Assembly: GCA_019634305.1 (NCBI GenBank)
Contig: JAHQVQ010000382.1
Coordinates: 1 to 36,035 of the forward strand
Direction: 5' to 3'
DNA length: 36,035 bases
Source of the DNA: Flammeovirgaceae bacterium
GTDB lineage: Bacteria; Bacteroidota; Bacteroidia; Cytophagales; Flammeovirgaceae
A program made the position numbers and the translations under genes. Below, piece after piece: positions 4,109-28,572 of the stretch. How positions within the stretch are numbered: the stretch's first letter is position 1; each line of letters opens with the position of its first letter. The notes under the pieces were generated by a model. That model did no database searches, had not been told where the DNA came from, and was given only the letters and a program-made list of their open reading frames with translations.

Positions 4109-6577
4109 TTAGAAAGTATAGGAAACCGTTGTCATTAAATTTCTTGGAGCTCCTGGAAATGCGCGAATATAATCGTATCCACCAACCCAATGCGTTTCGT
4201 TCAACACATTATTCACATTCACCTGAATCTGAAATTTATCTACCTTATAATAAATGGCAGCATTCAATAATTCATAACCCGGAAAAACAGGAGGCTCATC
4301 CGTCTGAACAATAGAGCCATATCTTTCCGTTACAAAATTTGCCCCCAACCCAAAACCAATTCCATTAAATGTACCCTGATTAATCACATATTTCGTCCAG
4401 ATATTTCCAGCATGTTTGGGCGCATTTGGCTTCTGCCGGTTGATTTCCAATTCATCATCGCTTTGGGTAATTACAGCATCATTGTACGAATAATTCGCAA
4501 CAATACTCCAGTTGTCTCTTATCTTTCCAACCACATCAAACTCAAATCCTTTGGCTAGTTCTTCCCCAATCTGTATCAGTAAGTCTGGGTTCTCAAGATC
4601 ATTTGCAGCATACAATGCTCCTTTTTGCCTTAATTGATAAGCAGCCAGTGTCAGGTTAAGTCTACCTTCCAGCCAATTTGTTTTTGCTCCAAATTCAATC
4701 AGATCACTGGTTAAAGGATCGAATGGACCTCCTGCATTTGGATCATTAACCACCGATGCAGATTGGGGTTGATAACCTTCTACATAAGTTCCATAAACAT
4801 TAATATTGCGGGAAATTTCATATACAGCACCTATTCTTGGAATCAGGGCACTTTGCTCCACAGATGTTTCTTCAGCTGTTTTATATTTCAAATCATCGAA
4901 ATAATAGTCTTTTCTTAGACTGAAGAGCATTTTCAACTTGCCAATAGTAACCTGATCCTGCACATAAATACCATGAGAACTTAGTTTACTTTGAGGATAA
5001 AGATTGGTCTGGTAAATATAATTACTCATGTCCCGAAGCTGGTTGGCAGTAGGGTCGGTCAGATCGAAATGAGGTACATTTGGGATTGGATTACCATTGT
5101 GATCCAGTGCATAAGCAGCTGCATTTTCCGGGTTGAATGAATTTATCGTAGCGGTTCGGTCAGCCGTTAAATATCCTCTTGCCTGCAATTGCGAACCACC
5201 AGCTCCCAATACCTGTTGGAAATAATCATATCCTACCAATAATTTGTGTTCCAGTTTTCCTGTTTGCAAATTGAAATTGAAATAGTTGTTGAAGTTGTCA
5301 TTATTCCAGTTTCTTTTTCGGATAGATACCCGCATTTCAACTTTTTCAGGATCTTTGCTTCCATCGCCAAGTGTGGCAAAAGTATTGGCAGTACGATGTT
5401 CCAATAAATCTTCACTGTAACCAGATCTCATGTAAATGCTATTGAAAGCAATCTTTTTGGTGAATTGATGATTCAAGGATAAAGTAGCTGAGAGATTCTC
5501 TTCTTTTAAATAATCATTTGCCGCATTCAGTGCTTTGGAAGTCGGTACGGAATATAAATCCCCATTGCCAAAAACGGCCTGTCCTCTGTCCAGTCTGCCA
5601 TTGGAATTTTGGAAAACAATGTCAAAATTCAGCCTCGTTTTATCACTTGGCAAAAAGGAAAAAGAAGGTGCAATGATCAGATTTTTATCGAATTGCAAAT
5701 CCCGGAAATTCCCAGAATTTTCATAACCAAGATTTAGTCGGTAAAGCAACTTTTCATCTTTTGACATAGGCCCTGTAAAATCTGCCAATGTTCTGAAAGT
5801 ATTGAAACTCCCTACAGTAGCACTGATGGACTGCCTCTGTTCAGCTAATGGTTTTTTAGTCACCCGGTTGATGGTTCCTCCCGGTGAAGCATTTCCAAAT
5901 AATGCCGAAGCAGGTCCTTTTATCACTTCCACCCTTTCGATATGGGGAATCAGTTGTTGCTTCCAAAAACTGGTAAAAGCCCTCATACCGTTGACCAAAT
6001 TATCTGAATTTCCCTGTCCTTTTACTCTGTATCCTCTGATTGTAATATCATTATAAAAAGAAAACTGATTTACCCCACTGATATTTTTCACTACATCATT
6101 CACCCTAAAAGCTGCCTGATCCAATGCCAGCTCCTTGGTGACATAGCCCACAGATTGTGGTACATCCTTTAAAAGTGTGGCCGTTTTACTGGCTACAAAA
6201 GAAGTGTTATTGGCATATTCCGTCTCCATTCTTCCAATCACTTCCACAGTTTGCAATTCCTCTGCATACTCTTTTAAGGTAAAATCCAAAGTTAAAACCT
6301 GATTGCCTTCAATTTGTATATCTTGGGACTGGCTTTCAAATCCTATTCCCGAAATGATCAACTGATAATCTCCGGCAGGTATATTAGTGATGACATATTC
6401 CCCATTTACATCGGAAGGAGCTCCTAAACTTGTCCCCTTCAAACCCAGGCTTATGCCGGTTAATAATTCCCCTTTTCCATCTGATACTTTTCCTTTTATT
6501 GTCCCTTTGGCATCCTGTGCCTGAACGTTTCCAAATGCTGCTAAAATGAGCAACACATATAGTATTATCTGCTTCAT
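4109..6577 (-). CDS. TonB-dependent siderophore receptor with N-terminal carboxypeptidase-like (CarboxypepD_reg) domain
   Basis: Signal peptide, KGTIKGKVSDGKGELLTGISLGLKGTSLGAPSDVNGEYVITNIPAGDY repeat, plug motif VEVIKGPASALFGNASPGGTINRVTKKP, C-terminal beta-barrel ending in VSYTF. Confidence 0.93.
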   Translation of the reverse strand: MKQIILYVLLILAAFGNVQAQDAKGTIKGKVSDGKGELLTGISLGLKGTSLGAPSDVNGEYVITNIPAGDYQLIISGIGFESQSQDIQIEGNQVLTLDFTLKEYAEELQTVEVIGRMETEYANNTSFVASKTATLLKDVPQSVGYVTKELALDQAAFRVNDVVKNISGVNQFSFYNDITIRGYRVKGQGNSDNLVNGMRAFTSFWKQQLIPHIERVEVIKGPASALFGNASPGGTINRVTKKPLAEQRQSISATVGSFNTFRTLADFTGPMSKDEKLLYRLNLGYENSGNFRDLQFDKNLIIAPSFSFLPSDKTRLNFDIVFQNSNGRLDRGQAVFGNGDLYSVPTSKALNAANDYLKEENLSATLSLNHQFTKKIAFNSIYMRSGYSEDLLEHRTANTFATLGDGSKDPEKVEMRVSIRKRNWNNDNFNNYFNFNLQTGKLEHKLLVGYDYFQQVLGAGGSQLQARGYLTADRTATINSFNPENAAAYALDHNGNPIPNVPHFDLTDPTANQLRDMSNYIYQTNLYPQSKLSSHGIYVQDQVTIGKLKMLFSLRKDYYFDDLKYKTAEETSVEQSALIPRIGAVYEISRNINVYGTYVEGYQPQSASVVNDPNAGGPFDPLTSDLIEFGAKTNWLEGRLNLTLAAYQLRQKGALYAANDLENPDLLIQIGEELAKGFEFDVVGKIRDNWSIVANYSYNDAVITQSDDELEINRQKPNAPKHAGNIWTKYVINQGTFNGIGFGLGANFVTERYGSIVQTDEPPVFPGYELLNAAIYYKVDKFQIQVNVNNVLNETHWVGGYDYIRAFPGAPRNLMTTVSYTF

Positions 6578-6604
6578 TGTTTAATCAATTAAATTATTTA
6601 CCTC

Positions 6605-6624
6605 TATTTAGATTAATTCTAAAC
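6605..6624. promoter_or_regulatory. Fur-box-like palindrome upstream of the siderophore receptor
   Basis: TATTTAGATTAATTCTAAAC; arms TTTAGA/TCTAAA around a 5-nt centre, about 30 nt upstream of the receptor start. Confidence 0.5.
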
Positions 6625-6668
6625 AATGCAAATATCAGAAGCAAAATCCCTTATGGCAATAACTAGAG

Positions 6669-6738
6669 CTAGGTAAATTTTTTATGGCTTTAGGTAGGGA
6701 ACATTATTCACTATGGGAAGGTAAAAGATTTTACCTAG
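6669..6738. promoter_or_regulatory. Inverted CTAGGTAAA / TTTACCTAG repeats in the receptor upstream region
   Basis: CTAGGTAAA at 6669-6677, TTTACCTAG at 6730-6738, and the palindrome GGTAAAAGATTTTACC at 6720-6735. Confidence 0.4.
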
Positions 6739-6855
6739 TGCTAGGGAGTGGAGAATTTGTGTGTTTTCTGCTCGGTCGCAATTGTATTGCAATCGAAACA
6801 AATTCATGATCTATAATGCGGGAAAAATTGTTTATGAAGTTTTTCCAGGTTTGCA

Positions 6856-6985
6856 AAATCCTACTATTCGCCATTGTAAATGACGAATAGTAGGATTTAT
6901 ATCTAAGGATTTTTAATCCGGCTTTTTATTGAATCCTGATTAAAAATCTTTAGATAGCACTTCGGAATTTCAAATTCCGAAGTGC
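6856..6985. repeat. Three contiguous long inverted repeats (hairpins) downstream of the DUF1552 gene
   Basis: 6856-6870/6884-6898, perfect 15-bp stem; 6900-6918/6938-6956, 19-bp stem with one G-T pair; 6957-6970/6972-6985, perfect 14-bp stem with 1-nt centre. Confidence 0.9.
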
Positions 6986-6995
6986 ACCAAATTTA

Positions 6996-8351
6996 TTACC
7001 CAAAAATATCCGTATCTAATTTTCCGGTACTGTCTGAAAAACTTTCTGTTTCAATGCCCATGGTATTCAGCATACTCACAAATAAGTTGGACATAGGAAC
7101 CTGGTCATCGTATTTTACATATTGCCCGTGCTTCACACCCATTTTTGAACCCCCAGCCAAAACTAGTGGATAATTTATAGCATCATGAGTGGTACTGCAG
7201 GCACTTCCGTAAAGTACCATTGTGTTTTCCAGTAGTGAACCATACTCATCATGCGTATTTTTCATCTTATCCAGAAAATAAGCATATTGTTTGGCCAACC
7301 ATTGGTCATATCTCCCCCACTCCTGCCAGTGATTGGCCGACTTATCATGGCTGATGGCATGGTGACCTCTTTGCAAACCAAGGGCTAATTTTGGGAAGTT
7401 TTCACCAAATCCCATTCCATCTTCCCTGGCCATCATATAAGTCATAACTCTGGTAAGATCTACTTGCATGGCCAATACCATCAAGTCAAAAGTGGACTGA
7501 ATATAGCCTTGTGGGTCAACAGTAGCATTTACATTTAAATTCAGATGATCAGTACTGAAATCCTTCATGGGAATATCCAGCCAGGCTTCATTTCTTTTGA
7601 TTTGTGTCTCAACAGAATTCAGAGAAGTCAGGTATTCATCCATTTTCTGTTGGTCGGATTTCCCCAGCCTTTTCTGTAAATTTTTACTGTCTTCCAATAC
7701 CAAGTCAACTATTTTTTGATCCTGCTGTAGACTTTTCTTTCTTGCAGCTGAAGATTCTCCTCCTCCTCCCTGAGAAAAATATCTTTCAAAAATTTGTCTT
7801 TGCCTATGCTCTGATGGTAACGCTTTTCCAGTGTGGTCGAAAGAAAGTGTAGAAACCCTGGATTTATATCCCACTCCGCCATCTGTAGATAAAGCAAGAT
7901 ATGGATATCGGGTGTATTTGCTATTATGCTGAGCTACTACCTGATCTACAGAAATATTATTCTTATATTCATTTCCTCTTAAATCACCACCGGTAAGCCA
8001 TGTGTCTCCAGCCAAATGCCCTAACAGGTTTCGACTTCTGGGATGGCTTAATCCTTTAATGATAGAAATATCATCCCTAAAAGGAGCAAGTGGAGATAAA
8101 GTTTTTGTCAATTTGTAATCACGCCCTTCTCCCAATGGAAACCAACTCCAATTTTTGTGATGATGATTTTCAGCCGGAGGTAAACCACAACCATTTGGGA
8201 AGTAAACAAAACAAAGCCTTTTTGGTACTTCCTTAGCGGTACTGCTGCCCATAAATGGATCACCCATCGCCTCTAAATAAGGCAACATACAAGTGACACC
8301 AAGACCTTTAAGAAATGTTCTTCTATCTAATTTCCAGGATTTTTTCCCCAT
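6996..8351 (-). CDS. DUF1552 domain protein with Tat-type signal
   Basis: N-terminal DRRTFLKGLGVTCMLPYLEAM (twin-arginine motif); CFVYFPNGCGLPPAENHHH, IIKGLSHPRS, SVDQVVAQHNSKYTRYPYLALS are typical of DUF1552. Confidence 0.88.
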   Translation of the reverse strand: MGKKSWKLDRRTFLKGLGVTCMLPYLEAMGDPFMGSSTAKEVPKRLCFVYFPNGCGLPPAENHHHKNWSWFPLGEGRDYKLTKTLSPLAPFRDDISIIKGLSHPRSRNLLGHLAGDTWLTGGDLRGNEYKNNISVDQVVAQHNSKYTRYPYLALSTDGGVGYKSRVSTLSFDHTGKALPSEHRQRQIFERYFSQGGGGESSAARKKSLQQDQKIVDLVLEDSKNLQKRLGKSDQQKMDEYLTSLNSVETQIKRNEAWLDIPMKDFSTDHLNLNVNATVDPQGYIQSTFDLMVLAMQVDLTRVMTYMMAREDGMGFGENFPKLALGLQRGHHAISHDKSANHWQEWGRYDQWLAKQYAYFLDKMKNTHDEYGSLLENTMVLYGSACSTTHDAINYPLVLAGGSKMGVKHGQYVKYDDQVPMSNLFVSMLNTMGIETESFSDSTGKLDTDIFG

Positions 8352-14816: not shown

Positions 14817-15143
14817 TTATTGGTTAAGAATACTGACTGCGTCTAAAAGCAATTGGGCCTTTGCAAGTCCGGATTTCAATTGAAAGAATTCCTCTTTTGA
14901 AAAATTAAACTGAATATCTTCATGACAAGAATTTAAAATGACAAATGGAGTGTGATTTCCTTGTCTAATACAAACCTTATCAAAGTCAAGAGCAATTACT
15001 GATTTTGAAAATGTGTAAAACCCATTCGGGCTAAAGCTTATAAGAATATTATGAAAACTTAATCCTATTCTTTTGCATGTTTTACACTGTAAAACATGCA
15101 AATGTTTTTCCTCTACCAATATCCTTGGGTTACAATTTTTCAT
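14817..15143 (-). CDS. Small (108 aa) CxxC-containing hypothetical protein; possibly DUF6686-like
   Basis: CKTCKRIGLSFHNILISFSPNGFYTFSKSV ... IQFNFSKEEFFQLKSGLAKAQLLLDAVSIL. Confidence 0.65.
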   Translation of the reverse strand: MKNCNPRILVEEKHLHVLQCKTCKRIGLSFHNILISFSPNGFYTFSKSVIALDFDKVCIRQGNHTPFVILNSCHEDIQFNFSKEEFFQLKSGLAKAQLLLDAVSILNQ

Positions 15144-28523: not shown

Positions 28524-28572
28524 TTTCGTTTATTTTCGTTTTTTAAAATTATGGCAAATAAACGAAAATAAA
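28524..28572. promoter_or_regulatory. Putative operator of the adjacent DeoR regulator
   Basis: TTTCGTTTATTTTCGTTT (two direct TTTCGTTT units) facing AAACGAAAATAAA; TTTATTTTCGTTT (28529-28541) is exactly inverted at 28560-28572. Confidence 0.65.

Follow-up and report, generated by a model that had tools for sequence, protein, structure and literature searches.

A three-hairpin array beside a DUF1552 gene of a Flammeovirgaceae bacterium is most probably a gene-less, REPIN/BIME-like doublet of a RAYT transposase unit

The three end-to-end hairpins that adjoin a DUF1552 gene in the analyzed DNA (the window, a stretch of 36,035 nt) very probably represent a non-autonomous doublet of the REPIN/BIME kind that originates from the two ends of a RAYT (TnpA-REP, HUH-Y1) unit. 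Since its parts are found on either side of the transposase gene at many loci of one RAYT subfamily, the element corresponds to a RAYT unit without the gene. A previously unexplained hairpin array is thereby tied to a transposase subfamily, and the element is a parasite or passenger of the bacterial genome rather than a tail peculiar to the neighboring gene.

The array occupies positions 6856-6985. The sequence-only reading of this DNA had described three long hairpins lying almost without spacers, and the stems, coordinates and near-zero spacers were all found. On the + strand, hairpin 1 (left end, 6856-6898) is formed by 15 bp, a 1-nt mismatch and 4 more bp, hairpin 2 (6900-6956) by 19-bp arms in which one pair is G-T, and hairpin 3 (right end, 6957-6985) by 14-bp arms around 1 base, which when folded give 13 bp with a 3-nt loop. 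The spacer is 1 nt between hairpins 1 and 2 and 0 nt between hairpins 2 and 3. The array folded with -67.9 kcal/mol vs. -24.4 ± 3.6 kcal/mol in dinucleotide shuffles (z = -12.25), and 0 of the 200 shuffles were as good. Its host neighbors are two genes on the - strand, the DUF1552 (HXXSHH) gene (6996-8351, PF07586), which lies outside the element with its 3′ end 10 nt away, and, on the other side and downstream of DUF1552, a TonB-dependent receptor gene (4109-6577), 286 nt away. The sequence-only reading had correctly given 10 nt as the distance from the DUF1552 stop codon, but had assigned it to the first hairpin; because the gene is on the - strand, the hairpin nearest the stop is that at 6957-6985. 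The window holds two more long intergenic palindromes (15070-15104 and 28529-28572), the sequences of which are unrelated to the element.

The limits of the element were taken from 14 Flexithrix copies, in which conservation stops sharply at the GCT and AGC triplets and the flanks are not shared. In the window, the element body spans 6863-6985 (+ strand, about 123 nt), agreeing with the match of the covariance model R1 described below, and has the consensus GCT-hairpin 1-hairpin 2-hairpin 3-AGC. The window copy carries ACT...TGC in place of GCT...AGC, so its terminal triplets have decayed. The consensus of hairpin 1 is ATTCGACTTT-TGC-AAAGTCGAAT, and in the window its stem extends 7 nt beyond the element edge into flanking DNA. 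Hairpin 3 has the consensus CTTCGGGATT-TCA-AATCCCGAAG followed by AGC, and is also found at the downstream end of RAYT genes. In hairpin 2, the half-end TATC-NNAG-GATTTNTAATCCG pairs with a second, inverted half-end, its complement, as a REPIN-like center. The position of the hairpin 2 loop (6919-6937, + strand) is where the RAYT transposase gene lies in relatives (L115, L116 and other subfamily loci). Reading the Flexithrix copies by eye gave the overall consensus GCTATTCGACTTTTGCAAAGTCGAAT-n3-TATCNYAGGATTTNTAATCCG-loop-CGGATTAAAAATCCTRYGATA-n3-CTTCGGGATTTCAAATCCCGAAGAGC. The earlier remark that the three stems are not a simple duplication fits this anatomy, the hairpins being the terminal structures of a RAYT-type element.

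Template switching at quasi-palindromes can lengthen palindrome arms. In the window copy, the arms of hairpins 1 and 3 exceed the consensus length, and may have arisen in this way. A GTAG or GTGG foot was present in 6 of the 26 half-ends parsed from the 14 Flexithrix copies, the rest having mostly ATAG, ACAG or GCAG, and GTAG was the commonest foot tetranucleotide at RAYT loci (9/25). The feet of the window copy are TAAG and TAAA, without GT[AG]G.

The short GCT/AGC terminal inverted triplets and the look of an internal deletion could also be those of a MITE belonging to a DDE-type insertion sequence rather than to a RAYT. We regard this origin as very unlikely, since no target duplication was seen at the edges of the 14 Flexithrix copies, the ends are themselves hairpins, and RAYT genes are found between the two halves.

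Searching the bacterium's own genome with 161 nt of the region revealed further partial copies on other contigs, either in the same three-hairpin order or as shortened versions. The R1 model, built from 4 other copies with the window copy left out, matched the window at 6862-6986 (72.7 bits, E = 2e-12). It also matched about 8 other places in the own draft genome (partial and decayed copies counted, several being decayed). R1 found further matches at the level of the genus, the family and the order, many of them in Flexithrix dorotheae, of the same genus, and the doublet was present in 43 of the 292 genomes of the order (R1, E ≤ 1e-4). The copy number, about 10 per genome, is low for a REP family. 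The pattern GGATTTNTAATCC was rejected as a copy detector on its own, many of its single matches being chance-like, and was kept only when hairpins adjoined it.

The copies differ in sequence from genome to genome. Two-sided compensatory change was detected in 29 of 44 stem pairs vs. 16 ± 2 in shuffles, and 90% of the alignment cells were paired vs. 79% in shuffles, figures that lean towards structure because the alignment was fitted to the model, and whose shuffles ignore relatedness. Such changes would also be compatible with a conserved small RNA gene. This is extremely unlikely: the reverse strand scores strongly with R1 too, as DNA palindromes should, the region has 1 promoter-like site where 2.6 are expected by chance, and the edges coincide with transposon-type ends.

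The DUF1552 locus itself could be compared in two relatives. Flexithrix dorotheae DSM 6795, the nearest named genome, with a DUF1552 95% identical to that of the window, carries an orthologous copy 20 nt past the stop codon. This copy lacks hairpin 1, and its base changes preserve hairpins 2 and 3. The element therefore predates the split of the two Flexithrix lineages. In MAG NP30 (DUF1552 80% identical), no element was found downstream of DUF1552, where the flank does not align; the gene therefore does not require the element. The sequence-only reading had let its proposal depend on conservation of the stems in relatives, and this was found both in the two hairpins retained at the F. dorotheae locus and in the recurrence of the whole unit elsewhere. 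Stem conservation is thus a property of the repeat family, not of the operon.

Several Flexithrix copies are orthologous between two genomes and old. In the sister-genome search, most sites were orthologous and already occupied, or synteny broke at the element, so that neither a clean empty site nor an insertion junction was obtained. Movement was not observed. The two-genome Flexithrix alignment breaks at the element edge in two cases, L045 against G001:C14:246706-247524 and L041 against G001:C47:304321-304961, which suggests rearrangement or deletion at the element ends.

The Flexithrix places examined were intergenic in 17 of 17 cases, 11 of them between convergent genes and frequently no more than 20 nt from a stop codon; this set includes orthologous pairs from two species, and its genes were called as long ORFs only. 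The preference for convergent 3′ ends may reflect tolerance of insertion there, or a secondary use in 3′-end formation. Together with the strong fold and the 10-nt distance from the DUF1552 stop, it would also be compatible with an array that is retained because it serves the DUF1552 mRNA mainly as a 3′-end RNA element, be it a terminator, a processing signal or an exonuclease block. We consider this unlikely. No intrinsic terminator (a hairpin followed by a T-run) was found in 6560-7100 on either strand, and the Rfam search of the region gave no family at gathering score (best 31.5 bits vs. 120 required, the sub-threshold matches being chance ones). Moreover, the three-hairpin unit occurs beside unrelated genes and around RAYT genes, and is missing downstream of DUF1552 in MAG NP30. 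Two suggestions of the sequence-only reading, a tandem terminator and a structured 3′ UTR specific to the gene, are therefore not supported. An effect of the RAYT-derived doublet on the DUF1552 mRNA, if any, would be secondary. This case advises caution against taking such arrays for operon-specific RNA structures.

The association with RAYT genes was direct. At L116 in F. dorotheae, and at L115 in a different family of the order, a RAYT gene lies immediately between the element halves, one consisting of GCT-hairpin 1 and half of hairpin 2, the opposite one of the remaining half of hairpin 2 together with hairpin 3 and AGC. In gene orientation, L116 reads AGCTGTTCGACATTTGCAATGTCGAAC-TTTGATCATAGGATTTGAAATCC - gene - GGATTACAAATCCTGCGATAG-GCTTCGGATTTGCAAATTCCGAAGAGC. 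The F. dorotheae RAYT (C1:126278-126724) scored 107.9 bits with NF047646 (cut-off 80). Using it as an order-wide query, we delimited a cognate subfamily of 24 distinct loci (57-100% identity), with a clear score gap to the rest, which formed one group on the tree (support 91/95). The subfamily proteins have NHxH in 24/24 and YIHxNP in 23/24. A hairpin that abuts GCT on the upstream side or AGC on the downstream side was present at 19 of the 24 subfamily loci and at 2 of the 31 other RAYT loci (Fisher p = 2e-8). Hairpins were found at 21 of these 31 other loci, but with different sequence, the pattern to be expected with a separate repeat for every RAYT lineage. Across the 292 genomes, the doublet occurred in 16 of the 24 with a cognate RAYT vs. 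27 of the 268 without one (p = 1e-9), these 27 genomes thus having the doublet with no cognate RAYT of the subfamily detected.

The system comprises an HUH-Y1 protein of the RAYT family whose gene sits between inverted palindromic repeats that have further copies in the genome, as in known RAYT systems, and the doublet has the REPIN/BIME layout of two inverted, hairpin-forming units with a spacer, dispersed in intergenic DNA. Complete doublets flank cognate RAYT genes at G196:C12:804965-806787, where they form a tandem array with a spacing of about 132 nt, and at G259:C10:114545-115674. Two further F. dorotheae RAYTs, L125 (G001:C1:608923-609396) and L131 (G001:C14:64289-64765), each have their own unrelated flanking hairpins, so this genome holds several RAYT-repeat families.

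In the window genome (assembly 84.7% complete), a cognate RAYT was not found, the nearest RAYT being 50% identical and having different flanks. The own RAYT at G000:C115:13151-13702, above the NF047646 cut-off, was rejected as the cognate, as its flanks carry a different repeat. Beside it (L041, 13703-14089) is a partly repeated stretch of about 250 nt with TAACCAYAACTGCTGGTTCAAGTCTTG-type sequence, a different repeat. The own-genome Y1_Tnp genes at C108 and C307 were also discarded; both are interrupted by stops and the element was not seen beside either. With no cognate RAYT found, the window copy is probably immobile and, given also the decayed copies, the family is probably inactive in this genome. 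Most likely, the window copy is a fossil that F. dorotheae has as well.

The doublet is very probably what remains of a RAYT unit that lost the gene from its middle, and its two half-palindromes pair as hairpin 2. Judging from RAYTs studied elsewhere (PMC8266576), the cognate RAYT probably uses the hairpins as its single-stranded DNA substrate. The sequence-only reading had listed palindromes with a protein-binding role among its options, and this option fits, with transposase binding to single-stranded DNA as its expected form. Recognition would take place while the DNA is single-stranded, e.g., on the lagging-strand template, and the RAYT would presumably cut and rejoin near the foot, so that the doublet is copied or moved into intergenic DNA and no target duplication arises. 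Going further, one could imagine a distinct Bacteroidota class of RAYT-mobilized element, in which a three-hairpin cloverleaf substrate closed by GCT/AGC is recognized by its outer hairpins rather than as a GTAG-footed REP, and which was possibly co-opted as a two-sided 3′-end element between convergent genes; we hold this extension to be rather doubtful.

The kind of element is already known from the Bacteroidota TnpA-REP systems. REPINs, REP doublets that form a hairpin, and BIMEs of RAYT systems (Bertels and Rainey 2011, PMC3116915) share with the present element two inverted REP-like halves that pair as one long hairpin, the intergenic location, the compensatory changes and the RAYT association. 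The element differs from them in the extra outer hairpin of each half, giving three adjacent hairpins closable by a GCT/AGC stem, in its low copy number and in a GT[AG]G foot that is only partly kept. The REPtron, a REP-flanked tnpA-REP gene of E. coli and Stenotrophomonas (PMC2817692, PMC8266576), likewise has a RAYT gene between inverted palindromic repeats and a repeat family of its own for each RAYT lineage. The doublet equals a REPtron minus the gene, whereas the sequence, the extra outer hairpin and the AGC ends are different. We found no earlier description of the three-hairpin variant, Cytophagales included, with PMC6006769 judged from its text. The closest account is in that text, which describes TnpA-Y1 subclass 2.6 (Bertels group 5) as mostly from Bacteroidetes, of about 179 aa, with the motifs NH[LIV]H and YIH[QN]NP and with "atypical secondary structures" in the flanks that are copied elsewhere in the genome, lack GT[AG]G and are weaker. 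As far as this description goes, the subfamily resembles subclass 2.6 as a Bacteroidota RAYT of similar length, with an NHxH-type HUH motif, YIHxNP and flanking structures copied elsewhere. It departs from subclass 2.6, as so described, in the strong stems, in the GTAG present in part of the half-ends and in the HUH residue, which is often C (NH[CILVM]H; the x of YIHxNP is varied). The present analysis thus works out the anatomy of a REP-like element from Bacteroidota, of the sort left at "atypical secondary structures" in that text of PMC6006769.
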